Below are positions 17,190 to 51,875 of a stretch of 64,000 bases of DNA, piece by piece (positions within the stretch are counted from its first letter, which is position 1; every line of letters starts with the position of its first letter). The stretch comes from Flavobacterium shii (GTDB taxonomy: Bacteria > Bacteroidota > Bacteroidia > Flavobacteriales > Flavobacteriaceae). Location: the NCBI RefSeq assembly GCF_025847235.1, contig NZ_JAOZEW010000008.1:62001-126000 (forward strand), read 5' to 3'. Position numbers and translations under genes: made by a program. The notes beneath the pieces were generated by a model that saw only the letters and a list, made by a program, of their open reading frames with translations, was not told the origin of the DNA and searched no databases.

Positions 17190-17247
17190 CAAAAATAGAA
17201 GTAACATGAATCTAAATATTACGGATTTTTCGTAAAATAATTACGGG
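17190..17247 (-). promoter_or_regulatory. NRPS D promoter with two TTACGG half-sites 22 bp apart
   Basis: On the minus strand a box TATTTTTG (17197 to 17190) fits the Bacteroidota -7 consensus TAnnTTTG. Half-sites written on the plus strand lie at 17219-17225 (TTACGGA) and 17241-17247 (TTACGGG), starts 22 bp apart, i.e. near -38 and -60 if transcription starts about 6 nt after the box. AGTAACAT sits at 17200-17207. No -33 TTG is evident, which suggests activator dependence. The layout aligns base for base with the promoters at 45791 and 47891. Confidence 0.7.
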
Positions 17248-17292
17248 CTTAAAAAATAATATAAGTGCTCTGTAATAGTCTGTATAAGCAAA

Positions 17293-17328
17293 AAGGATCC
17301 CTGAGTTTACGTAAACCCTGGGATCCTT
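17293..17328 (-). terminator. hairpin terminator after the A-T-E-R gene (second of two)
   Basis: The arms AAGGATCCC (17293-17301) and GGGATCCTT (17320-17328) are perfectly complementary, with inner GTTTAC/GTAAAC pairing. On the minus strand it is followed by a short T run. It lies upstream of the NRPS D promoter, so it should isolate the two operons. Confidence 0.7.
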
Positions 17329-17353
17329 CTCTATTTAATTTTTGAATATTAAA

Positions 17354-17387
17354 AAAGGTTCAACTTTAATTAAAAAGTCAAACCTTT
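17354..17387 (-). terminator. hairpin terminator after the A-T-E-R gene (first of two)
   Basis: Inverted repeat AAAGGTT-C-AACTTT against AAAGT-C-AAACCTTT around an AATTAA loop. On the minus strand it is followed by six T residues. It is 58 bp past the stop codon of the A-T-E-R gene. Confidence 0.65.
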
Positions 17388-17445
17388 ATTTTTTTTAAAA
17401 TTTATGCACTTTTTGAATAATGCATTACTTTATTTTAAAACAATA

Positions 17446-20400
17446 TTAATAAATACTAACTGCTTCTATATTTACAGATTTTAGCTGACCAACGATTAGT
17501 TTTTTAAGCCAGTCTTTTGATAATTCTGGAAAAATGACTCCGTATTTACTAAAAATTTCATTTGATTCATTACTCAGATACTTTACATTTCTTTTTTGTG
17601 AAAGAAACCTGTTTACCCAAATATTATACCCATAAATACACTCGTATTCTTTCTCTGATCCTTTAAAGTTAAGCACAGCATTCTTAAAAACAGCATCATC
17701 TACTATTTTGCATGGATAGCCAATATGGTTCATTATGGATGCTATTTCTTTAATAGAAAAATAAGCTGTGTTTTCTAAATGGATACAATCTAAATCGCAT
17801 ATTATTTTTTGTAGTGCCATTGATGTTATTATATTTGAAATAACATCTACATAGGAGAACGATATTTTTTCGGTATAAGAAACAGGGATTTGATTTAATG
17901 CAATAATCCCGTTTAATACTTGAATAACTCTATTGTCGCCTGCATTTTTTTGGAATTTACCAGTTACAGAATGTGCGCCAATATGCCCTACCCTATATAT
18001 TTTCCCTTTCAATCCCTGATCAAAAGCCATACGTACAATTTTTTCAGCTTGAAACTTTGACTTCTCATATCCTGATAAGAATTTTTGGTTGATATCAAAA
18101 TGATGTTCTGAAAAATCTTGTCCACCAGTTGTGGTATAACCGCTTACCGCCAATGTCGAAATGTAATGTAATGTCTTTACTTTACCTTCGTTAGCAAAAG
18201 AAATAATCTGCTCTGTGCCAAATACATTGGTGTCATTTAAGTCATCATATGATTTTACAAGATTAACATTGGCTCCACAATGAATAATAACATCAATACG
18301 ATTTGTGAGATACCCATAATCATCCAGCCCTAAATGCCTTTTTGATAAATCTCCCAATACTATATTATCATTAACTTTCTCTGATAGCATTTCTCCCGGA
18401 AAATAATAATCCAAAGTATCTTTTAATTTTTGTTTTGCATTATATAAATTTTCCGATTTAATGAGACAAAATACCTCCGCTTCTTCCAAAAGTAAATCCC
18501 TCAAAACGCTTGATCCTAAAAAACCAGTTGCTCCGGTTAGTAAAATTGCCTTATCGTGTTTTTTAATTTTTTTATTGATCGGAAAATTTAGCATTGGTTT
18601 CCCAACTGTACAAACATTATTATAATATAGGTGGGCAAAATCGCTCCATTGCTTATTTTTTTCCAAATCAATATGCGGTGCCAGATTACTTAAAAAAAGA
18701 TTTGTTATTTTATGTATATCCTGGCTGTTAAAGCAGTCTGTATTATACTGAATATCAAAAATTAGATTATCGCCAATAAACCTACCAGTAAAAAATAATT
18801 TGTACTCGCTGTTGTTTTTATTAGATCTCGTAGGAGCTGTGGTGTAATGAGAAGGTTTTAATTTAAGGGATGTATTTTCATATGATTCAGGAAATTTCCC
18901 TAAATAATTAAATCTAATATCTGCCTTAAGCTTTTCATCATTTGAAAAAATACTGCTATGTGAGTTGATGTTATTCGCATAACTTGCAATAGGAGACATA
19001 TATTTTTTTAACTGCTGGACGGATCTGTGTCTTTCATCAAAATCAACCGGAATAGTGGTAGACCACCATGAAACAGATCTGCTTAAATCTATTCCTCCGT
19101 TTTCTTCCGGTCTTCCGTGGAATTCAATATCTACTGAACATTCTCTGATATCGTAAAAATCAAAAACTGAGCTAACGAAGCTGCTTAAGAAAAGATCCTG
19201 CAATTTTAAATGACTTTCGGACATCACTTCAAATTGCCTTAGTTTTTCAGAATACTCATTAGCAACAACAATAGAAACTACAGAATTAGAATGACGAGAA
19301 TTATATTTACTTATTGGTATTCCCTTAATTTCTTCGCTTATTCCCAAAGGCTTGCAAAAATCTTTTTGAGTTGATGTTTCTATCTCATTTTTTTTATAAA
19401 AATGATTCTGAATTTGTTCTTTACTCACAGGCAATGCCCTTTCTATATATAATGATTCATACCTCCATAAAATTTCTTCCAAAAGAGTGTTCCAGGAAAT
19501 CGCATCGGTAATCAAATGATGGCTTACTAAAAACAAATAATTAAGATTTTTACCTGTATCGGTAATTAAAGCCGATTTAAACAGAATTCCCTCTTCAATA
19601 GAAATGCTTTTAACCAAATCATTTGTAATCTGTATTAACTGATCCGTAAATAATTTTTCTGAATTTAAATTATATACAACTAAAGGAGGCGTTGGATTTA
19701 AATTATTTTCCGGAAAAAAATCATTATTTACATTTATATACTTCAGATTATAACTTTCATGAGACTTTAGAGACTCTTCGATTGCTTTCCCCAGCAATTT
19801 AATATTAATATCACCTTCTATATCAAACAATAATGTTTGTGTATAGAGATTTAAGTCCAGTGATTTATTTTTTAAGAATGTCAACTGGGAACTCGTAAAC
19901 TGTAAATCCGAAGATTCAACAATATTGTTGACCAAAGGATTTTTCTGGGATCTGTTTAGTGCTATAAAATGTTCAAAAGAAGGATTGTCGTATAGGTCTG
20001 CAAGATTCACATCAAATCCATTCAATTGTAATTTGCCCACAAACTTGATTGCACTTAAAGAATCTCCTCCTGAATCTAAAAAATGTCTATCTCGGCTTTC
20101 TATACCAAATACTTCCTGCCAGCAGTACAATACGTTATCTTCCCAACTATTTAAATCTAAATCTTTAAAAAGCTTTACATTTTTAGTGAAGTGTTGCTTT
20201 CTTAATGCTTTAAAGTCTATTTTTCCGTTTCCAGTGTAAACAATGTCATCTTGAATGTAAATATAAGCAGGTATTTTATAGTCAGGCAATAACTTTTTCA
20301 GCCATACTAACAGGTCTTCTTTTTTAAGCGTTTCGTCTTCAACAACCTTTATAAAACACTCTATAGAAGCTGTATTGTTTTCATAAAATGTATTTAATCT

Positions 20401-21672
20401 GCTGTATAGTATTTTAGGGTTTTTATTTAATGTCGATTCGATTTCATCCAGTTCGACACGATGCCCTCTAATTTTAACCTGATTATCATCTCTTCTTAAG
20501 AAAATAAAATTTCCGTCTTCTAACATGCTGCATATATCCCCCGTCTTATAACCTCGGTTATTTGTTTCTTCATTAAAAAAGAATTTTTCCTTTGTTTCAT
20601 TATCATTATTAAAATATCCTATTCCAACACCTGGTCCCTCGATATACAACTCTCCAATTCCATTTTTCTTATTAACCAAATAGGCATTGCCGTTCCCAAT
20701 AGGTTTTCCAATAGGTACACTATTTTCCGTTCCTAATGTTTCGGTTATTGGGTATACCAAAGCACCAACGGTTGTTTCGCTGGGACCATAATGATTCAAA
20801 ATAGTATTAAACAACTTTAAGTCTTTAATCTGCCTCACTAATTTCCATGGAAGTTTTTCGCCTCCCAACACAAGGAAATCCATTTTATAATCGACACCAA
20901 AATCTAAAAAAGGAAGCATAACTTCTATATGTGACGGAGTCGTCTTGATAAAATTGATTTGTTCTCTTTTTAGGATGGAATTAAAAAGGAAAGGGTCTCT
21001 GCATTCATTTCTATCCAGAATATAAAGCATACCACCTGATATTAAAGACAATAATAAATTTGTATGACCTAAATCTGTCGAGAAATTAGTAACATGTGCT
21101 GCATTTATACGATCAGGACTCTTTAAAAGTTCGTACAGATTATGTACATAATGCAGGACATTATCATGCGATATCTCTATCACTTTAGGCATGCCTGTTG
21201 TACCGCTGGTTGTAATCATATAACATACTTCGGCTATCTCATACGAATGTAGCGATTCTTCTTTTTCAAGCCCATCCATAAGCTCAGACTCATGCAGAAT
21301 CTGAGTTCCAGAAAGCATTTCTTCTTTATCACTATCAGAGTCTCTTACGATAATATAAGATGGTTGTGACGACTTAAGTTTGTTTTTAAGTACAAGGATT
21401 TCATCATCATCATCTAGCAATACTGGTATTCCTCCTGCATAAGAAATGCCCCAAAATAACAATATCGTAAAGTTGTCTTTTTTTGTTAAAAGCCCTATTC
21501 TGTCATTCACTTTTACCCCTTCTTTTTTTAATCTGGAAGCCAATTTAAGGGCTGAATTTTGTAATTCAGAATAAGTATAATGAGTACTGCTATCCTTAAT
21601 CGCAATGCGGTCAGGATGAATATTTGCAATATGCTCAAATAAATCGGTTAATTTTTTTTGCTTTTCTATCAT
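17446..21672 (-). CDS. NRPS terminal protein: A-T-E(like)-R, reductive release
   Basis: Peptide synthetase of 1408 aa without its own condensation domain. A domain 1-510 (TTSGTTGMPKV near 152); T (GGDSL near 535); an epimerization-type domain (SHHLITDAISW near 723, with Ala where Gly is usual; FHGRPEE near 853; RFNYLGKF near 923); and a thioester reductase domain with GATGFLG near 1047 and YEKSK near 1203. R domains release the chain with NAD(P)H as an aldehyde, or further as an alcohol. The A-domain core reads DLTKVGHVGK, one conservative change from the Asp code DLTKVGHIGK. NRPS C ends with an orphan C domain, so that C should load this carrier in trans: one module split over two proteins. 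The inferred product end is a D-configured aspartate-derived aldehyde or alcohol. Two terminators follow, so this is the last gene of its operon. Confidence 0.93.
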   Translation of the reverse strand: MIEKQKKLTDLFEHIANIHPDRIAIKDSSTHYTYSELQNSALKLASRLKKEGVKVNDRIGLLTKKDNFTILLFWGISYAGGIPVLLDDDDEILVLKNKLKSSQPSYIIVRDSDSDKEEMLSGTQILHESELMDGLEKEESLHSYEIAEVCYMITTSGTTGMPKVIEISHDNVLHYVHNLYELLKSPDRINAAHVTNFSTDLGHTNLLLSLISGGMLYILDRNECRDPFLFNSILKREQINFIKTTPSHIEVMLPFLDFGVDYKMDFLVLGGEKLPWKLVRQIKDLKLFNTILNHYGPSETTVGALVYPITETLGTENSVPIGKPIGNGNAYLVNKKNGIGELYIEGPGVGIGYFNNDNETKEKFFFNEETNNRGYKTGDICSMLEDGNFIFLRRDDNQVKIRGHRVELDEIESTLNKNPKILYSRLNTFYENNTASIECFIKVVEDETLKKEDLLVWLKKLLPDYKIPAYIYIQDDIVYTGNGKIDFKALRKQHFTKNVKLFKDLDLNSWEDNVLYCWQEVFGIESRDRHFLDSGGDSLSAIKFVGKLQLNGFDVNLADLYDNPSFEHFIALNRSQKNPLVNNIVESSDLQFTSSQLTFLKNKSLDLNLYTQTLLFDIEGDINIKLLGKAIEESLKSHESYNLKYINVNNDFFPENNLNPTPPLVVYNLNSEKLFTDQLIQITNDLVKSISIEEGILFKSALITDTGKNLNYLFLVSHHLITDAISWNTLLEEILWRYESLYIERALPVSKEQIQNHFYKKNEIETSTQKDFCKPLGISEEIKGIPISKYNSRHSNSVVSIVVANEYSEKLRQFEVMSESHLKLQDLFLSSFVSSVFDFYDIRECSVDIEFHGRPEENGGIDLSRSVSWWSTTIPVDFDERHRSVQQLKKYMSPIASYANNINSHSSIFSNDEKLKADIRFNYLGKFPESYENTSLKLKPSHYTTAPTRSNKNNSEYKLFFTGRFIGDNLIFDIQYNTDCFNSQDIHKITNLFLSNLAPHIDLEKNKQWSDFAHLYYNNVCTVGKPMLNFPINKKIKKHDKAILLTGATGFLGSSVLRDLLLEEAEVFCLIKSENLYNAKQKLKDTLDYYFPGEMLSEKVNDNIVLGDLSKRHLGLDDYGYLTNRIDVIIHCGANVNLVKSYDDLNDTNVFGTEQIISFANEGKVKTLHYISTLAVSGYTTTGGQDFSEHHFDINQKFLSGYEKSKFQAEKIVRMAFDQGLKGKIYRVGHIGAHSVTGKFQKNAGDNRVIQVLNGIIALNQIPVSYTEKISFSYVDVISNIITSMALQKIICDLDCIHLENTAYFSIKEIASIMNHIGYPCKIVDDAVFKNAVLNFKGSEKEYECIYGYNIWVNRFLSQKRNVKYLSNESNEIFSKYGVIFPELSKDWLKKLIVGQLKSVNIEAVSIY

Positions 21673-21706
21673 CTCAAAGAATAATCAAATGAATAATTAA
21701 GGTAAA

Positions 21707-22483
21707 TTATGGATAGGACTGTCTGGTTGGCCTAATCGAAATATTATCTAAATGCACATTTTCGGGCATCTGAACCAAAAACTGTATCACTTTGGCGACA
21801 TCGTCACCTACCAGTACAGGACCAATTTCGTCGCAATAATTTTCAAACCAATCCATATCATAACCGGCCGACTCTTGAAAATTTGTAGCAACCAGTCCCG
21901 GTTCAATAAGTGTTACACGAATCCCTTTAGGTCCCAATTCTCTTCTTAACGCCTCTGTTAGGCCATGAGTTGCAAATTTTGTAGCTCCATAAACAGAGTT
22001 AAATGGAGAAACATTTCGACCTATTGTTGAGCCTAGTACGACAATATCTGAAGGGGTTTTATTTTCCGGGTCTTTTTCTCTTGAGGCTATCATAACTTGA
22101 GAAATAGCTTTTAATTGATGCTGTAAACCCAGTACATTTATATTCCATAAATTCTCCCATTGCATTTCATCAGAAGTTATTAATGTTCCTGGTAATCCTC
22201 TTCCGGCACAAGCTATAAAAAGACTTGGGATTAAATTCCAATGCGTTTGACAAGCTTGTATGCATCTTTCGAGAGTTTTTTTATCAGTAATATCCCCAGC
22301 AACCACTATGGCTATTTCTTTCCCAGCTTGTGTATTGATTTCTTCTTTCAGCAAATCCAGCTCTTTTTCGTTTCTGCCGTTTAAAACAATCCTAAAACCA
22401 TCAGAAGCTATTCGCAAGGCTGTATTTCTTCCTATGCCTGAACTTGCGCCTGTTATAATCCCTACTCTATTTAAGTTTTCCAT
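21707..22483 (-). CDS. classical short-chain dehydrogenase/reductase in NRPS operon
   Basis: NAD(P)-dependent SDR of 258 aa. The cofactor motif TGASSGIG is at residues 11-18, with a Ser at 152 and the catalytic pair Y165/K169 in YGATK. Overall it resembles the YdfG type, which oxidises 3-hydroxy amino acids and reduces small carbonyls. It sits between NRPS C (95 bp) and the A-T-E-R protein (34 bp) in one operon. The context suggests either reduction of the released aldehyde to an alcohol, or redox change at a beta-hydroxyl; the sequence cannot tell which. No transmembrane or signal segment, so cytoplasmic. Confidence 0.9.
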   Translation of the reverse strand: MENLNRVGIITGASSGIGRNTALRIASDGFRIVLNGRNEKELDLLKEEINTQAGKEIAIVVAGDITDKKTLERCIQACQTHWNLIPSLFIACAGRGLPGTLITSDEMQWENLWNINVLGLQHQLKAISQVMIASREKDPENKTPSDIVVLGSTIGRNVSPFNSVYGATKFATHGLTEALRRELGPKGIRVTLIEPGLVATNFQESAGYDMDWFENYCDEIGPVLVGDDVAKVIQFLVQMPENVHLDNISIRPTRQSYP

Positions 22484-22578
22484 TTTTTGTTACTAATTAT
22501 TAAACTTTGTTCTTTTATCCGTTTGGATTAATCTGAAGTCTCAACAGGTAAATGTTACTACTTGAGATGTATGTTTTT

Positions 22579-25500
22579 TTAAAATTCTTCGCTTATTTCT
22601 GAAATAATCGCATTTAGAAAATCTTCCTGTTCCAAAAGTTCCTTTTCGCTTATGATTAAATTCAAACAATCATTAAGTGTCAGGGACTGGTCATCGGATA
22701 CATTTTCCAGTAATTTTTTAAAATCTGAGATTAACTTCTCAATAGTATCTTTCTCAAATAAATCAGTATTATAAGTAAAACGACATTGCAGGTTATTTTC
22801 AAAAAGGTCAAATTCAAATAAAAGATCATATTTGCTTGTTGCCTCTTCTTCGATGCATTGGCCAGACCTTATTAAATTCTCATTGATTTCTTCATATTCA
22901 TTTAGAGTAAGCATAACATCAAAAAGCGGGCTTCTTGACAAATCTCTCCCCTGATCCAGGTCTTCTAACAAAACATCAAACGGATAAGACTGATTATCAA
23001 AACAAGCCAAAACGTTTTCTTTAATCGTTTCTACAAAATTCTGATAGGGTTTCTCTTCATCCAAAAATATTTTTAAAGGCAGCGTATTAACATAAAAACC
23101 TACCTGATTATCTAAATCCGGATGGATTCTTCCTGAAACTGGGCTTCCTATAATAATCTCTTTCTGAAGGGAATTCCTGTATAAAACCATTGCTGCAATA
23201 CCCAGTAAATTCAAAAAAGGAGTTGTTCCTGTAGTCTTTGTTAATTTTATAAAATTTTCAAAAGCATTGCCGTCAATAATGTAAGTCAACAAGGATCCAT
23301 TGTAGGTCTTAAGATTAGGTCTATTATTTGCAAAACTCAGATTCAGTTGGGGTATTTCACCCTCAAACTGGTTTTTCCAAAAAGTTTTCTGATTTGCATA
23401 ATCATCTCCTTTGACTGTATTTAATTGCCAAATAGCAAAATCTTTATATTGAATGCGTAAATCAGAAAGCATTGGTTTTTCGGAATTCCTGAAAGCATTG
23501 TAAAAAGCCATCACATCACTCTTAAGAACTTTGTATGACCATCCATCAAAAATGATATGGTGCAAATTACTGTAAAATACAAAGGTGTTTTCGTCAACCT
23601 TCAGCAAAGCAAATCTTACCAATGGGCCATTTTTTATATCAAAAGGTTTAACCGAATCTTTATAAACATAATCAAACACTTCGTTATAAGGTTTTTCACT
23701 TTGAGTAAAATCGTAAGAACTTACTTTAATACCTAATTCTTCGGGAGACTTGACACATTGACTAAAATTTCCATCCAAATCTTCTTTAAATACTGTTCTC
23801 AAAATTTCATGTCTTTCTACCACTGCATGCAAAGCCTGGATAAAGAAATCAGGATCATAATCTCCTTTAAGGACTAATGTTGTCGGGATATTATAAGCCA
23901 CAGAACTTTCTTCTATTTGACTTAATGGCAATAATCTTCTTTGAGCAAATGAAACCGGATAACTTGGTTCTTCTGGAAATACAGGAATCGTATTACTTAA
24001 ATCAATTTCCAGTGAAGCAATAAGTTGCGCCTGAGATAACAATGTGGGATTGATGAAAATCTCACTTATCTTAAAATTAACCTCAAATTCTTCTTTTATT
24101 TTCGAAATCAATTTCATAGCCTTAATACTATGTCCTCCTATTTCAAAAAAATTATCTGTTACACCAACTTTTTCAATAGTCAGAACTTCCATCCAGATGG
24201 TCGCTAATTTAATTTCGATTTCAGTTTCAGGTTCAACATATTCGGTTTGAATCAAATCTGTATATGTTACAGCAGGAAGTGCATTTTTATCTGCTTTCCC
24301 ATTTGATGTCAACGGGATAGAATCAATCTGGATATAGTAACCAGGCAACATATAATCAGGTAATTTTTTTGATAAACATTCCTGGATTTCTTTTTTGTCT
24401 GTTTTCTTATCCGAAACGTAATAAGCAACAATAATTTTATCACCGTCTTTTTCATTTATAACTACAACAGATTGGCTTATTTCTTCAATATCAGCAATAT
24501 TTCTTTCGATTTCGCCCAGCTCTATTCTATGTCCTCTTATTTTTACCTGATCATCATTTCTTCCCAAATAAATTACATCACCATCAGGCAGCCATTTTGC
24601 TAAATCTCCGGTATTGTACATTTTTGTACCTTGAACAAATGGATTTACGATGAATTTTTCAGCCGTTAATTCCGGCTTGTTCAGATAACCTCTTGATAAA
24701 CCATCTCCCGCTACATATAATGTGCCCGAAACCCCAACCGGAACTGGTTGTAATTGTTCGTCTAAAATATATGCAGTACTGTTCTCGATAGGTTTACCTA
24801 TAGGAATGGAAGTAGTATCGCTTTTCTTGATTTCATGTGTTAAAGAAAATGTTGTGTTTTCTGTAGGTCCATATCCATTGGTCATTTTTATACTCTTAAA
24901 TGCATCAAAAAGTTTTTTTGTATGCACAGGAGAAACAACATCTCCTCCGGCAATAAGATGGTCAATAGTATCGAAAACATTAATATCACTATCTGCAACC
25001 TGACTAAACCATGAGGCTGTCATCCAGAGACAATTTACCTTATTGCTTTTAATAATATTTTTTAAAGTACTTGTTTCTAAAAGACTCTCCTGTTTTGCAA
25101 TTATTAATTTTGCACCGTTAAGCAATGTGCCAAAAAACTCTATTATCGTAGCATCAAAAGAAACTGCACCAGTGCTTAAAAGTACTTTGTTCTCGTCTAG
25201 TGGAAAATAAGATCCTGGTTTTACCAACCTTACTACACTTCTATGCTCCACCATCACACCTTTAGGGTTTCCTGTAGTTCCGGAGGTATAAATAACATAT
25301 GCCAAATCTTTTGGAGAATTCACTAAAGGAAGATTTCCTTTCTTATTTTCTACTTTAGATGACTTAAAAATATTCCATTCACTTTCATCAATAATTATCT
25401 TACAATGCGTGTCTTCTTCAATATATTTTATTCTCTCTTGTGGATAATTGGCATCGATAGGAACATAAGCACCTCCTGATTTTAGAATCCCCAGAATCGA

Positions 25501-27303: not shown

Positions 27304-27309
27304 AAGCTT

Positions 27310-36870: not shown

Positions 36871-36948
36871 AAAAAATTGTTTAACCTGGTATTGCCGGAT
36901 TTATATTTTCTTTTTTCTTTAATGATTGGATTTTCTTTTTAAAAACCT

Positions 36949-39900: not shown

Positions 39901-42900
39901 TACATTTGGTAACATTTTTTGTTTAGGAATACCTACTTTTTCAACAAATACACTTCTCAAAATCTCATGACGTTGCAAAAGGATATTAAATGCCGATTCG
40001 AAAGCATTAATATTTAAATTATCCGGCAATTCAAACGTACTGTAAATATTGAATTCCCTGGATTTTCCTTGTATTTTATACAATAACCAATATCGAATCT
40101 GAGAAGGTGATAAATCATAAAATTCCTGATTGGCTAATTTTGTAATCTCACTTACTACTTCTTCTGAATCATTTAAAAGAACTGCATGGTTTTTCAGACT
40201 CGTATTTGTATAGAGTGTTTTAAGATCAATTGTTCTTTTAAATATTTTCTGGTATTCGCTTAATAATTTCGTCAATAATAAACTGTGTCCTCCAAGCTCA
40301 AAGAAATCATCAGTAACACCAATTTTTTGATGTCCTAAAATTTCTTGCCAGATTACAGCAATCTTTGCTTCTGTTTCGGTAGTTGGTGCAACATATTCTT
40401 TTTTCAATATATCGGCTTCGGAAATAGTTGGAAGCTTTAAGGTATCTGCTTTTCCGTTTGCATTCAAGGGCAATGTTTCCAATGCTACATAATAACTTGG
40501 AATCATATAATCCGGTAATTGCTCTTTTAAATAACCTCTTAATAATTTTTTATCTATATCTGCGGTTGCAGTATAATAGGCTGCTATAACTTGTTCTTGA
40601 TTTATTTCTTTTATTAATACTATCGCATTAGTAATTGCAGGTTCATATTCTCTAATAACATGTTCTATTTCACCCAATTCAACTCTGTTACCTCTTATTT
40701 TTATCTGATTGTCTTTTCGTCCTATGAATTCAAGAGTACCATCAGGCAGCCATCGGGCTAAATCTCCGGTTTTATATAGCTTATCTTCTGCTTTAAACGG
40801 GTTTTGAATAAATTTCTCTGCCGTAAGTTCCGGTTGGTGCAAATACCCTTTTGAAAGTCCGATTCCCGAGATACACAATTCTCCAGCAACTCCAATTGGT
40901 TGTAATTTTAAGTTGTCGGATAAGATATAAACTTTGGTATTCGCTATTGGTTTTCCAATGGATACTTTTTCATGTAAAGCTTCTTTACAATTATAATACG
41001 TCGTTACAACTGTGTTTTCTGTTGGTCCATAATTATTATATACCTGTAAAGATGTGTTTACAGAATAATTCAGGCGTTCTCCTCCGGTAAGTATCGTTGT
41101 AGATAAGTCTAAACTGTCATCAGCCATAATATCCTGACAAATTTTTGAAGGCAGATAGGCATGTGTAATTTGATTATCTTTAAAAAAGGACGCTAATACT
41201 TCTGTCTGAAGACGTATTTCTTCTTTTTGAATTGGATAAAGCGTAGCACCGGATATCAAATACGGATAGATTTCCCAAACCGAAGCATCGAATCCAACTC
41301 CGGAAAATAAAGTTCCTTTACTGGTTTCATCCACATTATAGGTTTCTGTATGCCAATGACATAAATTTACCAAACTTTGGTGCGTAATCATTACTCCTTT
41401 TGGTTTTCCTGTAGATCCAGAAGTATAGATTACGTAAGCAAGATGTGTACTTACGGTTTTTATTTCAGGCTGCAAAGGAGATGTTTCACTGCAATAAAAC
41501 TCATCAAGAAATGCATCGTCTATTATAACCCCGGCAGCAACATCTTCCAGAATATCCTTAATTCTGTTTTCAGGATAATTTGTATCTATAGGCACATAAG
41601 CAGCTCCTGTTTTTAAAATACCTAATAATGATATAAGCAGGCGTTCTCCCCTATTTAGTTTAACAGCAATCAGATTTTGTGGAGCGATTTTACAATTTTC
41701 AATAAGATAATTAGCCAGTCTATTAGATAATTCATCTAATTGGGCATAGCTTAAAGTTTTGTCATCTTCTATAACAGCCAATTTTTGTGGGGTCTTCTTT
41801 ACTTGAGATAAAAAATGATCTATGACTGTTTTATCTGTATCAAAAACAGAATCTGTGTTATTGAATGTACGCAGTAAAGTTTCTTTCTCACTGTCAGAAA
41901 CTAAGTCTATTTCTTCTAATAATATTTCGGGCTGTCTTACTACCTGACGGAATAAATTCTCCAGATGCCAGGATATTTTCTCAATAAATTCAGCATTATA
42001 AATAGCTGTATTATAAAGAATTTCTAAATGAAGTGATTCTTTTTCTGTGAAAGTAAATACAATGTCAAACGGAGAAACATTACTGCTGATTTCAAATTCT
42101 TCCAGAACAATATCAGAAGAATTTGTATTTGTAAAGTTTGATACCTGATTTTGATTTTGTAAAACTACCATAATATCAAACAAAGGTGATCTTGAAGTAT
42201 CTCTCGAAATTTTCAACTGCTCCACCAAAGCATCGAATGGAAAATTCTGATGTTCATAACCTTCTAAAAGCTGTTTCCCTTCTCTTTCAAGCAATGTAGA
42301 GAACCCATCTTTCTGATCGATTAATGTTCGTATTGCAAGTGTATTGATATACAAACCTATCTGATGTTCCAAATCAGGATGCTCTCGTCCGGCTATGGGT
42401 GTTCCAATAACAATATCGTTCTGATTGCTATATCTTGATAACAATGTTTTTACTCCTGTCATTAACACCGTAAATAATGTTACCTGAGAACTCTTTGAAA
42501 GGTTTTTTAATTCGGTTAGTAATTCTGTTGAGAAAGTACAACGCAACTGACTTCCTGAATACGTTTTTACAATTGGACGGTTAGTGTAACCCGGCAATTG
42601 AAGTACTGGTGGTGTTTCTTCAAATTGTTTAAGCCAATAGTTTTCGGCTGTTTGATAGCTCTCTTTTTTCTGTTGATCCTGTAGCCATAAAGTATAATCT
42701 TTAAACTGAACTGTAAACTCAGGCAATAAAATGGAGTCTCCTCTTTCTAATATTTCATAATATTCTAAAACTTGTGCTGTCAATACTTTCAATGACCATC
42801 CATCGCTTATAAGGTGATGAATTGACAAATAAAACACATAATCAGCAGCAGTAGTCTTCAATAATGAAGCTCTGAATAAGGGTGCTTCTGCCAGATTATA

Positions 42901-45639
42901 ACTTTGTTTTTCTTTTTCTCTTATATAGTTTTCTACCTCCTCATATGGTAATTCCTGATTTGAAAAATCATGGGCTTCTATTGTAAAATGAAATTCATCA
43001 TTTGGAACAATAAATTGTTTTACTTCTCCTTCTTCATCTTTTTGAAAATATGTTCTTAAAATTTCATGATATGCAACTACCTGAGTAAATGCTTTGGTAA
43101 AATTATCAGCATTAACATTTCCTTTTAACAATACTGCTCCTGAAATTTGATATGCTTCATTTCCTCCTTCTAATTGACTTAGCAGCCATAATCTGTTTTG
43201 AGAATGTGTCAATGGATACGACTCTGAATATGAAACTAGCGGGATAGGTAAATACTCCTGATTCTTCAATACTTTTCTCAATTCATTGATAGTAGGATTG
43301 GTATAAAACACTCTAAACGGAACACTCTTATTCAGATTTTTGTAGATTGCATTAATAATTTGTGAAATCATTAGACTATGTCCTCCCAATTCAAAGAAAT
43401 GATCGTTCATACCAATAGGAGAAATTCCCAGAGTTTGTTCCCAAATTTCAACCAGTGCTTTCTCTACTGCATCTACAGGTGCTACATATTCTTTTTTAAT
43501 AATAGTGATGTCTGCTATTTCAGCAAGAGCATCCTTGTTTATTTTTCCGTTAGGAGTTAATGGGATCTTCTCTACTTTTATAAAATAGTATGGAATCATG
43601 TAAGCAGGAAGCTGTTTTTCTAAATGAACTCTTAAATGTATTTTATCTATAACCGTACTTTCTGTATAATATCCAACCAAGATATCTTCGCCATTGTTCT
43701 TTCTGACAGCTACAACGGATTGCAGAATATCCTCAGAAAATGAAGACATAACATTCTCTATTTCTTCAAGCTCAATACGATATCCCCTAAGTTTTATCTG
43801 ATGATCTTTTCTTCCTAGAAACGCAAGATTTCCATCCGGCATCCATTTTACCAAATCGCCTGTATCATACATCTTTTTTCCTTGTTCAAAAGGATTATCT
43901 ATAAACTTAACCGAAGTTAATTCTGCTTTATTGAGATATCCCTTAGCAATTCCATCTCCAGAAAGATATAGTTTTCCAATAGTTCCCAGTGGCACTAATT
44001 GAAACTCTTCATCTAAGATATAGGCTTGTGTATTATTTATAGGCTTACCAACAGGAATCGTTTGGTATATCTTTTCTGAAGACAATTTGTAGCAAGTACT
44101 ATAAGTTGTGTCTTCTGATGGACCGTATAAGTTTCTGATTTCGGCATTTGTTTGTAATAATCTTTTAGCGATATCTACCGGAAAAGGTTCACCAGCCAGA
44201 TTAATTACACTAACATTTTCAAAAGAAAAACCTTCCCCTAAAATATTTCGTATACTCGACGGAACTGTATTCAATAAAATCATCTGATCCTGTGATAGTT
44301 CTCTGCCAATCTCTAAAGCATTATTTAATATTTTTATTTTTTTTCCGATAGAAAGTGGATAAAACATCTCATATATAGAAAGATCAAAACAATGTGATGT
44401 AGCCGCATAAACGATATCAAAACTTTCCGAATTGAATTCTTCTTGTGCCCAATAAACTAATGCAACGGCATTTTGATGTGTGATCATTACGCCTTTAGGA
44501 TTACCAGTAGTTCCTGAAGTGTATATAATATAAGCCAAATCATCTGATCTTCTGCAAGATGATGGGTTTTCCTTAGTATAATTAACCTGGTTTTCCTCAA
44601 AATTATTATAAACCCCTACATCAATTACCAGCTTGCAATTACTGTCGGTTTCTATGTAAGCAATTCTATCTTCCGGATAATTAACATCTATTGGAACATA
44701 AGTTGCTCCTGTCTTTAAAACTGCCAATATAGCAATAAGCAGTTTTTCGCTTCTTTCTAATTTAACTCCCACAAAATCACCTTGCGAAATACTATTGCTT
44801 AAAAGATATTGAGAAAGCTGGTTTGCCTGCTCATTAAGAGATTCATAAGTAAGTGCAATTTCCTTACAAACAACAGCTATATTTTGAGGAGTTTTATGTG
44901 CTTGTTTTTCTACAATTTCTGATAATGTTATAGTACGGTCATAGTCGGATTTTGTATTATCCAAATTATCCAGCAACAATCTTTTTTCCTCTTTAAAAAT
45001 TAAAGAAATCTTAGATGCAGATACATTGATACTATCTTCCAGTTCTTCAAGCCATCTTTCAAAATTATTTAGAAAATGTAGTGCAATGTTACTTTCTGCA
45101 AATTTCTCAGAATAATATAATGAAATCTTTAAATCATTGTTTTTAAGCTTTTCAATATGAAATGACAATTCGTTATATAATTCATAAGGCTTAGTATTAA
45201 CTCCATAGTTAAATTGAAAAGGAATGTAGTTTACACATGAACCCTGATCTGTAAGAACATTTCCATAATAAGGAGCATTTTTATAAACCTCCTGAACCTC
45301 TTCTCTGGTTTCTTGTATAAACTCTTTTATCGTTTTTTGAGCAATCGGTTGAAATTCATAACATAACAGTTTTTCCTCGGAGGCCAGGAATGATTTCAAA
45401 AACAACATATTATCATCTGCAAAATAGCGCTGAAGTAACATGTTATAAAGTGCTATTAACACCGTAAATTCTGCATCTGTATTTTCCCCTGTCACCTTAT
45501 AGAAGTAAGAAAGTTTACTTGAATCGACTTTAATAAAATCTACAAAAGAACTTTCTGAAGCACTTTCTTTAGAATAAACAATTCTACTATTTTTTTTATG
45601 CCAATAATCTTTAGCTATTTTGTCGTTGATGTGATCCAT
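36949..45639 (-). CDS. NRPS A: C-lobe-A-T-C-A-T-C-A-T
   Basis: Peptide synthetase of 2896 aa, first gene of the main NRPS operon. Residues 1-225 resemble only the C-terminal half of a condensation domain (starts DYWHKKN; no HHxxxDG). Then A1 (from 235; YTSGTTGNPKG near 378), T1 (GGHSL near 750), C (HHLISDGWS near 940), A2 (from 1270), T2 (near 1782), C (MHHSIGDGWS near 1965), A3 (from 2293; LYTSGSTGMPKG near 2445) and T3 (GGNSL near 2835). Core codes read: A1 DLYNNALTYK (Ala type, cf. DLFNNALTYK), A2 DAWYLGNVVK (Leu type, cf. DAWFLGNVVK), A3 about DAKHDGDIV, not recognised. It ends in T, so the chain is handed to C1 of NRPS B, whose docking domain sits at its N-terminus. The promoter is at 45791-45848. 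Confidence 0.94.
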   Translation of the reverse strand: MDHINDKIAKDYWHKKNSRIVYSKESASESSFVDFIKVDSSKLSYFYKVTGENTDAEFTVLIALYNMLLQRYFADDNMLFLKSFLASEEKLLCYEFQPIAQKTIKEFIQETREEVQEVYKNAPYYGNVLTDQGSCVNYIPFQFNYGVNTKPYELYNELSFHIEKLKNNDLKISLYYSEKFAESNIALHFLNNFERWLEELEDSINVSASKISLIFKEEKRLLLDNLDNTKSDYDRTITLSEIVEKQAHKTPQNIAVVCKEIALTYESLNEQANQLSQYLLSNSISQGDFVGVKLERSEKLLIAILAVLKTGATYVPIDVNYPEDRIAYIETDSNCKLVIDVGVYNNFEENQVNYTKENPSSCRRSDDLAYIIYTSGTTGNPKGVMITHQNAVALVYWAQEEFNSESFDIVYAATSHCFDLSIYEMFYPLSIGKKIKILNNALEIGRELSQDQMILLNTVPSSIRNILGEGFSFENVSVINLAGEPFPVDIAKRLLQTNAEIRNLYGPSEDTTYSTCYKLSSEKIYQTIPVGKPINNTQAYILDEEFQLVPLGTIGKLYLSGDGIAKGYLNKAELTSVKFIDNPFEQGKKMYDTGDLVKWMPDGNLAFLGRKDHQIKLRGYRIELEEIENVMSSFSEDILQSVVAVRKNNGEDILVGYYTESTVIDKIHLRVHLEKQLPAYMIPYYFIKVEKIPLTPNGKINKDALAEIADITIIKKEYVAPVDAVEKALVEIWEQTLGISPIGMNDHFFELGGHSLMISQIINAIYKNLNKSVPFRVFYTNPTINELRKVLKNQEYLPIPLVSYSESYPLTHSQNRLWLLSQLEGGNEAYQISGAVLLKGNVNADNFTKAFTQVVAYHEILRTYFQKDEEGEVKQFIVPNDEFHFTIEAHDFSNQELPYEEVENYIREKEKQSYNLAEAPLFRASLLKTTAADYVFYLSIHHLISDGWSLKVLTAQVLEYYEILERGDSILLPEFTVQFKDYTLWLQDQQKKESYQTAENYWLKQFEETPPVLQLPGYTNRPIVKTYSGSQLRCTFSTELLTELKNLSKSSQVTLFTVLMTGVKTLLSRYSNQNDIVIGTPIAGREHPDLEHQIGLYINTLAIRTLIDQKDGFSTLLEREGKQLLEGYEHQNFPFDALVEQLKISRDTSRSPLFDIMVVLQNQNQVSNFTNTNSSDIVLEEFEISSNVSPFDIVFTFTEKESLHLEILYNTAIYNAEFIEKISWHLENLFRQVVRQPEILLEEIDLVSDSEKETLLRTFNNTDSVFDTDKTVIDHFLSQVKKTPQKLAVIEDDKTLSYAQLDELSNRLANYLIENCKIAPQNLIAVKLNRGERLLISLLGILKTGAAYVPIDTNYPENRIKDILEDVAAGVIIDDAFLDEFYCSETSPLQPEIKTVSTHLAYVIYTSGSTGKPKGVMITHQSLVNLCHWHTETYNVDETSKGTLFSGVGFDASVWEIYPYLISGATLYPIQKEEIRLQTEVLASFFKDNQITHAYLPSKICQDIMADDSLDLSTTILTGGERLNYSVNTSLQVYNNYGPTENTVVTTYYNCKEALHEKVSIGKPIANTKVYILSDNLKLQPIGVAGELCISGIGLSKGYLHQPELTAEKFIQNPFKAEDKLYKTGDLARWLPDGTLEFIGRKDNQIKIRGNRVELGEIEHVIREYEPAITNAIVLIKEINQEQVIAAYYTATADIDKKLLRGYLKEQLPDYMIPSYYVALETLPLNANGKADTLKLPTISEADILKKEYVAPTTETEAKIAVIWQEILGHQKIGVTDDFFELGGHSLLLTKLLSEYQKIFKRTIDLKTLYTNTSLKNHAVLLNDSEEVVSEITKLANQEFYDLSPSQIRYWLLYKIQGKSREFNIYSTFELPDNLNINAFESAFNILLQRHEILRSVFVEKVGIPKQKMLPNVDILIPIFESEAAIKSDVFEHEFDLESYPLFKIAILKQGTTHRLYFNMHHSIGDGWSMGIISRDLMHIYTAINAGETAALPELLIQYKDYAQWQNKLLQSPEITVQENYWKQQFEGSLTYLQLPSDYISKLKKADTSSSYTVYITEDKKKKIEELSRKNGSSVFAVFVATLKILLFRLTSEEDIIVGIPVANRNHYQLKDLVGCFINTLMLRDKIDGNVSFQTWLQTVNETLINALAHQNYPFEQLLELIDVPQNDNRFPISPVFLNMVDFDVKALEIITEFIPNHGILEATPKFDVECYIKSFANGYSINCVYDHELFKKETIQYWINAYLSIIDQVIVNEEKPLETIKIFEEFVYQEEDLKPINDFRFFEASEIQQSITQRFEKQVERFPYHRAVASNGIELTYKMLNNCANHLAQQINAKANHETKRIALLLNHNETCVIGMLGVLKAGYAYVPIDPNTPLSRIQYIIEDSGCNQLVCNDKTIETAQQLQQIVPELSIIKLSQNYVLPQIPNPYNSLNSLAEAYVLYTSGSTGMPKGVLQNQKNVLHFIRVYTNNVQIGENDNLSVFSTYTFDASVKDIYGAILNGAKVSFYDIVENGLDQLSEWLLAQNITIIHMVPTIYRNFLKGLEEDVVLPTVRLIDLGGESCHKADLDLFKKYFLEGTFLVNDYGPTESTIVSQKFLTHTSQLTRNNMPLGKAVKETDIFLLDENNQPRGIYQTGEIVFKSDYLSLGYLNRQELTDNAFITDPITGEGRVYKSGDIGKMLPTGEVEFLQRKDSQVKINGLRIELSEIEYQLEQIEFIKEAVVLLKELQGNNYITAYVRLTETLDVTKVKMLLGKILPKYMIPTIYIAMEEFPLTRTGKIERKALPNPTISDLKTVPYVAPKNDIESELVAIWAEVLKLRPEIVGTEDNFFELGGNSLQAVVLINKINKTYSTMFSITNLYETLNIAGLSVLLNFYIIQKNEFEMVLQEEDQDEIVL

Positions 45640-46064
45640 TATTGTAATTCTTTTATACGGTTAATATCAATTTGTGAACTGTTTAATAAATTATTAAAGT
45701 CTTTCTTTTTAAAAACACTTTTCTCCCTCTGTCATGAGAACAACAACCTAACTATTTAATTTTCAACACTAATACAAGCTAGATTTTATGCTAAAGTAGT
45801 AGTAACATTTCTTTAGAGATTACGGATTTTTGATATAAAAATTACGGACTTATAAACCCCGAACGATAATCTTAAAGATTAAGTCAATTAAAAAAAATTG
45901 AATTTTTTTGACACAACAATACCACCCCCATCAATTCGACGGAGTTTAAAAATCTAACTTGAATTTTAATGATAGAATTATCTCAGGGAGATTACCCTAG
46001 ATAGTAATAGCTTTCCTTTCGGGCCATTTTGGAACACTGTTGTATCAGAATTGGCATGCTGTGA
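45640..46064. other. intergenic region upstream of NRPS A
   Basis: This 425 bp gap lies between the threonine dehydrogenase gene and NRPS A. It holds the NRPS A promoter with its two TTACGGA half-sites (45791-45848), followed by a leader of about 145 bp. I see only a weak AGGG/CCCT inverted repeat near 45985-45998 and no convincing terminator for the upstream operon, so some read-through is possible. Confidence 0.6.
45791..45848 (-). promoter_or_regulatory. NRPS A promoter with two TTACGGA half-sites 22 bp apart
   Basis: TTACGGA occurs at 45820-45826 and 45842-45848 (plus-strand writing), start to start 22 bp. Twenty-nine bp below the proximal site is TACTTTAG on the minus strand (45798 to 45791), one mismatch from TAnnTTTG. 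AGTAACAT is at 45801-45808. Every spacing equals that of the NRPS D promoter. Confidence 0.7.
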
Positions 46065-47033
46065 TTAAAAAGACAGTTGATTTTGAACAGTAGCATCTAA
46101 TTTCTCCAGCATCTCTAAAGTCATACTTGATAAATCAAATTTATTTTTCCAGTTCCAATCTAGCCTTGCAGAGCTATCATCTATACTATCGGGCCAACTA
46201 TCTGCAATTAATTGGCGAAAATCATTCTCTTTATATGTTATCTCAAAATCAGAGATATGTTTTTTAATTTCGGCAGCTATTTCATTAGGATTAAAACTCA
46301 TTGCTGACAAATTGTAAGAGGAGCGAATTTTTACCATATTGCCTGGAGCTTGCATAATAGCTATTGCTGCATCAATAGCATCATCGATATACATCATTGG
46401 CAAACTAGTTTCTGGAGATAAAAAACATTCATATTTTTGCTCCTTAATTGCTGAGTGAAAAATATCTACGGCATAATCAGTTGTTCCTCCACCTGGGGGC
46501 GCTGACCAGCTAATAATTCCCGGAAATCTGACACTTCGAACATCAACACCAAAAGTTTTATAGTAGTACTCACACCATCTTTCTCCAGTTTGCTTGCTTA
46601 TTCCATATACAGTTGAAGGTTCCATAATTGTATATTGTGCCGTTTTCTCACGTGGTGTGTTATTCCCGAAAACAGCAATGCTGGAAGGCCAGAATATCTT
46701 TTTTATTTTTTTTGCTTTTGCGAGATTAAGAACGTGAAAAAGCGAATTCATATTTAAATCCCACGCATGAGCATGTGCTTTTTCGGCTGACGCTGATAAT
46801 AAAGCAGATAATAAATAGACTTCATCTATAGCATACTTATCCACAAAATATTCTATCTGATCAAAATTAAGAGCATCAATAATTTCAAAATATCCATGAT
46901 TAACAATATCACTATCAGGCTTTACAATATCAGAAGCAATAACATTTTCAACTCCGTAAATTTGTCTTAATCTCAAAGTAAGTTCAGTACCTATCTGACC
47001 ACATGCACCTATAACTAAAATTTTCTTATTCAT
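46065..47033 (-). CDS. L-threonine 3-dehydrogenase, short-chain (GalE-like) type
   Basis: NAD-dependent oxidoreductase of 322 aa, extended SDR fold. It resembles the GalE-like L-threonine dehydrogenase known from Flavobacterium frigidimaris: cofactor loop GACGQIG (9-15), catalytic Ser in PSSIAVFG (117-118), Y143/K147 in TVYGISK, and the characteristic PGGGTTDYAVDIF, LPMMYIDDAI and DSWPDSIDDS stretches. It would oxidise L-threonine to 2-amino-3-oxobutyrate. It lies 51 bp after the PPTase gene in an operon driven by the cluster-type promoter at 47891, which is unexpected for a plain catabolic gene. No partner 2-amino-3-ketobutyrate CoA ligase is present in the window. It may supply a precursor, or simply be a housekeeping gene caught in the operon. 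Confidence 0.88.
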   Translation of the reverse strand: MNKKILVIGACGQIGTELTLRLRQIYGVENVIASDIVKPDSDIVNHGYFEIIDALNFDQIEYFVDKYAIDEVYLLSALLSASAEKAHAHAWDLNMNSLFHVLNLAKAKKIKKIFWPSSIAVFGNNTPREKTAQYTIMEPSTVYGISKQTGERWCEYYYKTFGVDVRSVRFPGIISWSAPPGGGTTDYAVDIFHSAIKEQKYECFLSPETSLPMMYIDDAIDAAIAIMQAPGNMVKIRSSYNLSAMSFNPNEIAAEIKKHISDFEITYKENDFRQLIADSWPDSIDDSSARLDWNWKNKFDLSSMTLEMLEKLDATVQNQLSF

Positions 47034-47084
47034 ATTTCTTTTTTAAATGATTAATATTTCTTAAAATTTAAAAATAACTTTATA

Positions 47085-47717
47085 CTATATTTTCCTTATG
47101 CAAAGCTCATCAATAGGCATATCCAGAGAGATATAGCATTTATATTTTTCGTCAATTTTTATTTCTTTTAAAAAAAACTTCTGATCGTTTATGATAGCTG
47201 CGTCTTCAGAAATCTCGAATGTTTTTAACGGTATTGATAATCCGTGACCATGTGTCTTAATGACAGCTTCTTTTTGTGTCCAATACGCAAAAAAGGATTC
47301 CATCATTTTGCCGGATGAAGTAATGGTCAACCATTCCTGTTCTGTCATCTGCCATTTAAAATCATCTATTTGAATATCTGATATAATCTCAATATCAATT
47401 CCTACTTGTGATTTTTCTACTAATGCACAAACTACTATTTCTCCTGAATGTGAAATATTAAATTGGATAAGACTATCCTTAAAATATGGTTTATTATATT
47501 TCGTCTGCAGGATCTCCTTATAATTAAGTTTGCATTTGTAAACCTGTTCAATTGCCTTAAACAATATTACTCTGCCCAAAAGTGACAATTGTGCATCTTG
47601 CCATCTTCTATAGCCCTTTATTTTATCTTGATAATCTGATGAAAACTTTGATAATTCATTTTCTAACAAATTTTCAAAATTGTCTTCAGAGATATATGAA
47701 TAATAGATGTAAATCAA
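47085..47717 (-). CDS. Sfp-type 4'-phosphopantetheinyl transferase
   Basis: Transfers the phosphopantetheine arm of CoA to carrier-protein serines and so activates the T domains of the NRPSs. The protein is 210 aa, usual for the Sfp family. Motifs: FNISHSG at 86-92, GIDIE with metal ligand D108 at 106-110, and WTQKEAVIKTHGHGL from 146 with E150 and K154. It heads a two-gene operon with the threonine dehydrogenase, downstream of a promoter with the same half-site pair as both NRPS operons, so it is probably induced together with its substrates. Confidence 0.93.
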   Translation of the reverse strand: MIYIYYSYISEDNFENLLENELSKFSSDYQDKIKGYRRWQDAQLSLLGRVILFKAIEQVYKCKLNYKEILQTKYNKPYFKDSLIQFNISHSGEIVVCALVEKSQVGIDIEIISDIQIDDFKWQMTEQEWLTITSSGKMMESFFAYWTQKEAVIKTHGHGLSIPLKTFEISEDAAIINDQKFFLKEIKIDEKYKCYISLDMPIDELCIRKI

Positions 47718-47890
47718 AACTATAGATGTTTAAAATTTTTAAATTCAAATTTGTTATTTTCCATAAAGTCTAATTTAAACTCCTGCCATTTTACTGGTAT
47801 CACTTGAATTTGATATGAAAAATATATTCTGCCTGTTACTGCGTTAAATCATATCTACTTAAGCTTTAAGTTAGATAGCCTTTTCTTTTA

Positions 47891-47948
47891 CGAAAATAGT
47901 GGGGATTTCTTAAAAAAAATTACGGACTTTTTGTTTAAAAATTACGGA
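47891..47948 (-). promoter_or_regulatory. PPTase operon promoter with two TTACGGA half-sites 22 bp apart
   Basis: TTACGGA at 47920-47926 and 47942-47948, start to start 22 bp. At the same offset as in the NRPS promoters is TATTTTCG on the minus strand (47898 to 47891), one mismatch from TAnnTTTG. The AGTAACAT element seen in the two NRPS promoters is not conserved here. The leader to the PPTase start is about 170 nt. Confidence 0.65.
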
Positions 47949-48160
47949 CTTAATTTTTTTAAGTAATTATCTAAAAAAATAAGCAGGTAAGCATCACAAA
48001 TAACGCATCCTGTTTTATAAAAACATTTAAATTTTAAATAATTGCAGAGATCATAAAATATCTCTACAAATTATTTTTAAGCAAAAAAAATAGGAATTTC
48101 ATTGAAGATTTAATATTCCAAAATAATTAATGAATAAAACATTAAATATAAATCTGAATA

Positions 48161-50447: not shown

Positions 50448-50471
50448 AGTTTAAGTATTATTTTACAATTT

Positions 50472-51869: not shown

Positions 51870-51875
51870 ATTTCT

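Follow-up and report, generated by a model that had tools for sequence, protein, structure and literature searches.

A shared promoter layout at biosynthetic operons of Flavobacterium and a neighboring response regulator as its likely reader

Three biosynthetic gene groups of Flavobacterium shii raise the question of whether they answer to one regulator and, if so, what reads their promoters. The window analyzed here is a stretch of 64,000 nucleotides (NCBI RefSeq assembly GCF_025847235.1, contig NZ_JAOZEW010000008.1, positions 62,001 to 126,000 of the forward strand), in which two nonribosomal peptide synthetase (NRPS) operons and a 4'-phosphopantetheinyl transferase (PPTase) operon are each preceded by two TTACGG half-sites starting 22 bp apart (17219/17241, 45820/45842, and 47920/47942, read from the window sequence). 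We consider it probable that a single pathway-specific response regulator, encoded at 51126-51794, acts on all three promoters; it would also regulate its own locus through palindromes. This confidence covers the regulator-promoter relationship and is based on the sites, their spacing, their conservation, their co-occurrence with the regulator, and predicted folds, from which we infer binding, activation, and phosphotransfer.

The three pairs serve minus-strand genes, so their functional reading is CCGTAA-N16-CCGTAA, followed on the coding side by 21 bp and then by a −7 box reading TATTTTTG, TACTTTAG, or TATTTTCG. The direct repeat at 17219-17246 (minus strand), whose geometry is kept in relatives, forms the promoter of the operon starting with the NRPS gene 9778-16971; its box TATTTTTG lies at 17190-17197 with ATGTTACT above it at 17200-17207 (minus strand), and both the box and a ATGTTACT-like stretch are present in the class-1 logo described below. 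The repeat at 45820-45847 (minus strand) is the promoter of the NRPS genes running from 45639 down to 17446, with box TACTTTAG at 45791-45798 and ATGTTACT at 45801-45808 (minus strand) in the window sequence. The repeat at 47920-47947 (minus strand) is the promoter of the PPTase-epimerase pair, with box TATTTTCG at 47891-47898 (minus strand), and such a repeat also precedes a PPTase match in genome G159 (locus L087). A preliminary description of this DNA had reported pairs exactly 22 bp apart, a −7-like box starting 29 bp below the proximal TTACGG, and a sequence shared by the two NRPS promoters at equal offset. Each of these elements lies where that description placed it: the 29-bp distance applies to TATTTTTG, TACTTTAG, and TATTTTCG, and the shared sequence, AGTAACAT, is found at 17200 and 45801. 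The half-site had been given as TTACGGA; the copy at 17241 reads TTACGGG. The 8-mer AGTAACAT, which is ATGTTACT on the coding side and part of a stretch common in class 1, is common by itself, occurring 10 times on the window's plus strand. The shared, precise promoter layout of the three gene groups is confirmed as real.

A single terminator predicted at 17354-17387 (minus strand; mean of 0.0 in shuffled sequences) separates the gene 17446-21672 from the 17219-17246 promoter, which fits a fresh transcription start there. The sigma-A box TAnnTTTG of F. psychrophilum maps at −12 to −5 (PMC9723704). If the boxes here are assumed to occupy the same place, the two half-sites would cover approximately −61 to −56 and −39 to −34, which is an activator position, and transcription starts should lie near 17185, 45786, and 47886.

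The preliminary description had treated random occurrence of the spaced pair across the genome as an argument against a shared design; such scatter was looked for and not found. CCGTAA-N16-CCGTAA has 3 matches in 5,576,800 bases, all at the three named promoters, while the backward pattern has 1, and base composition leads one to expect 0.32 pairs per genome (P = 0.004 for at least 3) and 0.004 per window. With 5-base half-sites, the genome contains 82 pairs over 29 spacings versus 96 and 85 in the backward control, and the pairs at 22 bp, counted from the pair list, are three, namely, the three promoters. In this single genome the 22-bp spacing is unenriched in number; the location of the copies is what stands out.

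The spacing itself becomes conspicuous in relatives. We compared 70 loci (1.31 Mb), comprising the window, 9 further loci, and 60 of the listed genus-wide matches, chosen by similarity of the regulator and not by the motif. The regulator had been searched in 398 genomes of the window's genus, 262 of which gave a match at E 1e-38, and stretches of at most 20 kb were taken around a part of the top-ranking regulator matches. Distant paralogues (L049 to L052) were excluded from the spacing, palindrome, box-offset, and lipoprotein counts, and the sets behind these counts did not include L040 and L053 to L058 at any point. In the 70 loci, the 22-bp spacing accounts for 66 CCGTA pairs (61 of them intergenic), no other spacing from 8 to 35 bp accounts for more than 4, and the backward control never exceeds 4 at any spacing. 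Among 59 named records with a relative of the regulator, 56 of which say Flavobacterium in their titles, 36 CCGTA pairs are spaced by 22 bp, and none of the other spacings from 12 to 32 bp has more than 3; the 59 named loci and the 70-locus set overlap in genomes, and their counts are not independent. The preliminary description had proposed a comparison of orthologous loci; the related loci examined here show the same pair, the same spacing, and the same −7 distance.

A logo was built on the 61 intergenic pairs among the 66, aligned on the pair and divided into class 1 (33 sites with a downstream NRPS, polyketide synthase [PKS], or PPTase match or with a locus number below 125 except L041, L042, and L046) and class 2 (the remaining 28 sites). 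Class-1 sites read roughly aagtCCGTAATTTTTAtnynAAAgtCCGTAATTTTTAgatnaatgttactgcTATTTTnG, with the box fixed in position (T50 in 32/33 and A51 in 32/33). The approximate class-2 reading is ACCGTAAAAAAAA..CCAAAAAACCGTAA, in which the box varies more but keeps its place (A51 and T55 each in 28/28). Box base A51 is present in 60 of the 61 sites, which indicates a constant distance between the site and the polymerase box. Such a constant distance would fit an activator-dependent (class II-like) promoter.

The same logos bear on the proposal that the shared design is the promoter of an alternative sigma factor, consisting of the box and the ATGTTACT above it, with the TTACGG pairs being incidental. 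Class-1 sites do share a ATGTTACT-like stretch and TATTTTnG, and many class-2 kinase-side boxes read TAAATTGC or TACATTGC, fitting TAnnTTGY, a box that PMC9723704 ascribes, as the most likely case, to an alternative sigma factor. Yet pair spacing and distance are constant across both classes while box type and ATGTTACT stretch differ, the pair tracks a response regulator, and the class-1 boxes fit sigma-A variants, which makes a sigma factor a highly improbable explanation. Class-1 boxes are of the TAnnTTTG-like type (TATTTTnG), while class-2 and kinase-side boxes are partly TAnnTTGC and depart from that type. The design resembles the flavobacterial sigma-A promoter TAnnTTTG in box type and assumed position; it differs in that the seventh box base of class 1 is free and that a CCGTAA half-site occupies the −33 zone.

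The most likely binder of the pairs is the neighboring NarL-type regulator, a protein not named in the preliminary description. This response regulator (51126-51794, plus strand) is assigned as the proposed activator on the basis of Pfam (receiver, PF00072), an AF2 model, Foldseek, and a genus-wide link to the site. The model (pLDDT, 90.8; pTM, 0.73) predicts a four-helix C-terminal domain of the NarL/FixJ fold, and the best Foldseek matches are RcsB, spr1814, LiaR, VraR, and DesR. NCBIfam models of NarL/FixJ-type regulators match most of its length at scores far below the cut-off, and in the absence of a Pfam helix-turn-helix (HTH) match the NarL/FixJ assignment is one of fold. The receiver residues D10, D63, and K120 are invariant in 46 regulator sequences, the phosphoacceptor aspartate being present, and the helix residues E192, K193, R194, K195, and K199, the core of the predicted recognition helix, are invariant in 58 regulators with the site. 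A correlation between the half-site flank base (T/A) and regulator residue 188 (M/L) was confounded by descent and was not used.

The link between the site and the regulator was drawn from the 398 genomes, with regulator-positive genomes defined by a match at E 1e-50 or better, hand-compiled genome lists, and a strict pattern of CCGTA-N12-AAA-N2-CCGTA. This pattern is present in 62 of 99 regulator-positive versus 28 of 299 regulator-negative genomes (P = 3.6e-25), and its backward control shows no association (16/99 versus 34/299; P = 0.22). Among 199 genomes of the family, from 198 genera, only 3 outside the genus gave a regulator match at E 1e-40, with 38 to 40% identity. No CCGTA palindrome or pair was found at the loci of paralogous regulators with at most 41% identity (the 20 loci L019 to L038, together with the four larger loci L049 to L052), and these loci show no excess of 22-bp repeats of other sequence, a weak comparison given that they hold only about 7 and 9 kb of noncoding DNA. 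In the positive set, tandem repeats of unrelated origin, chiefly those of L134, blurred the 22-bp repeat search.

Direct repeats spaced by about 21 to 22 bp are the classical binding sites of LytTR proteins, and LytTR regulons (AgrA and ComE) have direct repeats with a period near 22 bp before bacteriocin or quorum genes. The resemblance in period at first suggested that a LytTR-type response regulator, in place of a NarL-type one, binds the direct repeats, and in class-2 loci the palindrome does lie between the regulator gene and a divergently oriented gene for a LytTR response regulator (PF04397). Among the 40 loci L087 to L126, however, a LytTR match is confined to the stretch of L119, whereas the pair is present in many of them. 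The window and L039 likewise contain the pair but gave no LytTR match, and none was obtained in the stretches of L102, L117, L140, and L142 (4-kb contig), where the pair stands beside the regulator. The best matches to the class-2 LytTR protein in G000 (the genome of the window), G004, G159, G098, G125, and G180 are paralogues (44 to 54% in the DNA-binding part and 29 to 34% in the receiver), and in G126 and G303 a 46% match lies outside this locus, versus 67% for G014. In addition, the direct repeats share their half-site with palindromes before the NarL-type gene, and the regulator tied to the 22-bp sites has no LytTR domain by Pfam, AF2, or Foldseek. On the locus survey, the fold matches, and the paralogue identities, LytTR was dropped as the main explanation, and we judge it unlikely.

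Three TACGG-N5-CCGTA palindromes of the pair's half-site lie between the regulator gene and the kinase operon of the window. The first, TACGGTAAATCCGTA (50881-50895), has its minus-strand CCGTA ending 22 bp before the −7-like box TTTTTTTG (50851-50858, minus strand) of the lipoprotein-kinase operon; TACGGAAAGTCCGTA occurs at 50984-50998 and again at 51072-51086, where it starts 54 bp before the regulator gene. The earlier statement that the paired motif stands before no other genes of the window is right for pairs but leaves out these palindromes at 50881, 50984, and 51072. The genome contains 5 such palindromes, 3 of them here, and the backward control finds none. Those outside the locus are at C11:65847 and C55:35586; the latter, TACGGATATACCGTA (G000:C55:35586-35600; L053:5587), lies in an intergenic gap left of the cluster, where it may have arisen by chance. 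At least one palindrome precedes 52 of 72 regulator genes. On the kinase side, the −7-like box starts 22 bp after the palindrome CCGTA in 48 of 52 cases, which is the geometry of the biosynthetic promoters, and on the regulator side the most frequent offset is 8 or 9 bp.

We propose the following scheme, stated conditionally, for the preferred NarL-type regulator. The histidine kinase (48429-50447) would phosphorylate the NarL/FixJ-fold regulator. At biosynthetic promoters, the regulator would bind a direct repeat of CCGTAA half-sites with a period of two helical turns and recruit RNA polymerase to the sigma-A-type −7 box that follows after 21 bp. The palindromes would be the sites that it binds at its own locus. 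One of these may activate the lipoprotein-kinase operon, as the kinase-side 22-bp box offset matches the direct-repeat promoters and suggests positive feedback, and the palindrome facing the regulator gene, close to its own box, probably serves autorepression.

The genes behind the site in other genomes indicate what such a regulator might control. Directly behind 20 of the 61 intergenic sites (counted from the list) is a gene matching NRPS, PKS, or PPTase queries; other sites precede operons with such genes further along, and others precede quite different genes. PKS genes stand directly behind the site in G004 and G408 (L039 and L099), and G159 (L087) has sites before both a PPTase and an NRPS gene, as in the window. 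A regulon linking carrier activation to the NRPS operons, as previously suggested, is borne out here and in G159 but is not general, with a PPTase match behind only 2 of the 61 sites of the 70-locus set. Of the 59 named loci, 23 have an NRPS/PKS match within the stretch, and 22 of these contain the pair; of the 36 loci with no such match, 7 contain it (22 and 7 hand-counted; Fisher tested), and two of these 7 (L188 and L217) show no −7-like box. Class-2 pairs at L041:12463-12633, L046:10448-10627, and L140:9070-9261 precede short peptides with a double-glycine-like leader, judged by eye, near C39-peptidase ABC transporters; a Pfam search of these peptides found no family. Other class-2 pairs stand directly before an RteC-family gene (PF09357; L145:11485-12327), the family being named after a mobile-element regulator, and before a pectate-lyase-like protein (L138). 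Pairs also precede single very large proteins (L116:1-9682, L125:13295-19876, L129:12949-17913, and L144:566-5770; 1,654 to 3,227 amino acids [aa] within the stretch), of which that of L116 has 36 Ig-like domain matches. Targets thus span NRPS, PKS, short peptides, and other proteins, and the site is not bound to a single product type. The conserved geometry in relatives and the biosynthetic targets support the earlier reading of an activator-dependent, pathway-specific regulon, for which we infer activator dependence and binding, and they support the view that the design acts as a pathway-specific activation code in many Flavobacterium genomes.

Several observations weigh against this reading. 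Some class-2 sites, as just described, precede nonbiosynthetic genes. The strict pattern is missing from 37 of the 99 regulator-positive genomes and present in 28 regulator-negative ones; 11 of these 28 exceptions were rechecked, and 6 have no regulator match at E 1e-5 while 5 have some match. G152, G249, and G251 contain only distant regulator relatives (33 to 40% identity), G234 has regulator pieces at a contig edge, and at G069:C1:8001-8227 there is a regulator remnant with an internal stop, after which the 22-bp pair still stands; two of the 6 genomes with no match are 65% and 76% complete. The Pfam scan of the regulator finds the receiver only and no family for the C terminus, and its Foldseek matches span both domains at TM-scores near 0.5. 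CCGTA-N22-TnnTTTnG is unenriched in this genome (19 matches versus 22 in the control), and although 4 of the 19 lie in the cluster (the three operon promoters and the kinase promoter), the half-site-plus-box pattern alone is no genome-wide signal. Palindromic partner half-sites were sought within the direct repeats, and none were evident, the gap-5 score not being the best. Finally, ComA, the analogue considered below, no longer binds once its direct repeats are moved apart by one more full turn, and by that analogy a dimer reading of the 22-bp site would be hard to explain.

What the module might sense is suggested by the kinase and the small protein encoded before it. The sensor histidine kinase (48429-50447, minus strand; Pfam; model pLDDT, 83.8; pTM, 0.56) has an N-terminal hydrophobic helix, a tetratricopeptide repeat (TPR) solenoid predicted at residues 42 to 361, a long helix, HisKA_3, and the ATPase domain (HATPase). 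In structure comparison, its TPR part resembles peptide-binding TPR proteins: the TPR domains of LGN/Pins, whose structures include partner proteins, and Rap proteins, of which some structures include their peptides. Its catalytic part resembles VraS and DesK. Some loci have no kinase near the regulator (e.g., L100, L102, and L117). Directly before the kinase, and opening its operon, is a gene for an 87-aa lipoprotein-like protein (50556-50819, minus strand) that ends in GDPVIVIPPRKD, has a signal stretch and lipobox by pattern, and is a candidate signal precursor. Of 58 kinases that have a regulator close by, 52 are preceded by similar lipoproteins, the export of which was judged from sequence patterns. 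Across these 58 pairs, the lipoprotein and the palindrome are associated (both present in 48, the lipoprotein alone in 4, the palindrome alone in 0, and neither in 6; P = 5e-6). A looser search before all 63 long kinases gave 51 small genes with a lipobox, some of them spurious, and the stricter count of 52/58 was used. The family shares the signal stretch and lipobox, has a variable middle, and shows a recurring end, e.g., GDPSNPKPPRK or EGDPIIPKPPRKD, in which an alignment of 51 sequences has G in 42/47, P in 44/47, and P in 40/48. A second TPR kinase-regulator locus of the same genome (L052:5263-5592; G000:C54) has a small exported-looking protein directly before the kinase with three tandem copies of PIDGGAAGGGRKQD, as in a multicopy pheromone precursor.

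The conserved lipoprotein before the kinase, its recurring end, and the triple copy of PIDGGAAGGGRKQD suggest a peptide signal. The module may then be quorum-sensing-like, with the TPR domain of the kinase, placed outside the cytoplasm, sensing a peptide released from the lipoprotein C terminus, a proposal to which we would give slightly less than an even chance. In its fuller form, held with the same just-short-of-even confidence, this would be a peptide-pheromone system in which the lipoprotein is cut to a proline-rich C-terminal peptide, the TPR kinase responds, and the regulator switches on entire NRPS, PKS, or double-glycine-peptide clusters by way of the 22-bp direct-repeat promoter, with positive feedback acting on the gene for the signal. 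The regulatory code might in that case be common to species while the cluster behind it is exchanged, an extension that we hold as tentatively as the pheromone itself.

In a rival reading, the regulator is correctly assigned, but the lipoprotein would be an accessory of the sensor or a protein of the envelope, and the module would respond to the metabolite, envelope stress, or something else. Structural similarity connects the catalytic domain of the kinase with VraS and DesK and the regulator with VraR, LiaR, and DesR, and some systems of the VraSR/LiaSR/DesKR type answer envelope stress. By pattern, 6 of the 58 kinase-regulator pairs have no lipoprotein, and the loose C-terminal pattern [DE]P..[PRK] of the looser search fits the small proteins of 22 of 36 class-1-like kinases. 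Co-variation between the lipoprotein C terminus and the sensor in 50 loci (without L090 and L119) gave an r of 0.29 given the kinase (P = 0.0005) and 0.17 given the regulator (P = 0.003); it is positive but weak and unspecific to the C terminus, as the middle and the sensor reach 0.24 given the kinase, and the C terminus and the regulator reach 0.18 given the sensor. A peptide signal, on the other hand, is the better fit to the TPR sensor with the lipoprotein directly before the kinase, to the variable middle with a recurring proline-rich end, to the three tandem copies of one peptide in L052, and to a lipoprotein promoter with the same geometry as the targets. An accessory role for the lipoprotein, with some other signal, appears to us a serious possibility at somewhat below even chances.

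Among known systems, the closest analogue of the module is ComX-ComP-ComA-srfA of Bacillus subtilis. The likeness to ComA includes a four-helix HTH response regulator, a paired kinase, control of an NRPS operon, and the use of one half-site as both inverted and direct repeat, TTGCGG in ComA and TTACGG here, where the likeness concerns the sites only. ComA reads TTGCGG as an inverted repeat with a 4-nucleotide (nt) spacer and as a direct repeat with a 5-nt spacer, and a 15-nt direct-repeat spacer abolished binding (PMC4797271). In contrast, the palindrome here is TACGG-N5-CCGTA and the direct repeat is 22 bp from start to start, so that the spacers of 4 and 5 are not matched; moreover, the sensor here is a TPR solenoid, and the putative signal is a lipoprotein end. 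By analogy, the module appears to work like ComA, but it is not classed as a ComA system. VraSR, LiaSR, and DesKR, which are among the best structural matches of the kinase catalytic part (VraS and DesK) and of the regulator, are not known to have a TPR sensor and have other sites and targets. FimS-FimR of Porphyromonas gingivalis resembles the module as a Bacteroidota TPR kinase with a paired regulator, FimS being a periplasmic TPR sensor kinase whose signal is stated to be unknown in PMC11053733. It differs in that FimS-FimR controls fimbriae and that the window kinase scores 35.7 bits against the cut-off of 600 bits of NCBIfam FimS. Among the listed titles and abstract openings of open-licence papers, none was found that describes the motif or the module.

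The layout looks like a reusable on-switch for natural-product genes. It offers a readable promoter code for the natural-product clusters of Flavobacterium, with a likely activator and sensor named and a candidate signal proposed. If this is correct, overproduction of the regulator or addition of a short peptide could wake silent clusters, and a testable class of ligands would be available for Bacteroidota TPR sensor kinases, including FimS (signal stated to be unknown; PMC11053733).

The gene content behind the three promoters was assigned by domain search. The first gene after the 45820 promoter encodes an NRPS (36949-45639, minus strand), and the run continues (17446-36870, minus strand) with NRPS genes at 27310-36870 and 22579-27303, a short-chain dehydrogenase/reductase gene at 21707-22483, and an NRPS with a terminal reductase at 17446-21672. 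Behind the 17219 promoter (1-16971, minus strand) are an NRPS at 9778-16971, a class III aminotransferase at 8340-9719, and an NRPS at 1-8359 that leaves the window. The third promoter precedes an Sfp-type PPTase (47085-47717, minus strand; Pfam PF01648 and PF22624) and, after it, an NAD-dependent epimerase/dehydratase (46065-47033, minus strand; Pfam PF01370). The NRPS frame at 1-8359 extends left to about C55:54419 (L053 and L054; region G000:C55, about 44553-62000), and another NRPS-like gene lies left of the window at about C55:44553-49031; the window thus contains only part of the cluster. Right of the cluster are two AraC-family regulator genes (window 54466-55317 and 56394-57539), the former divergent from a zinc-binding dehydrogenase gene (53432-54379). 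Genes for a pfkB kinase, SusD, and a TonB-dependent receptor follow at 59603-63961, where the window end looks like the entry to a sugar-use locus.

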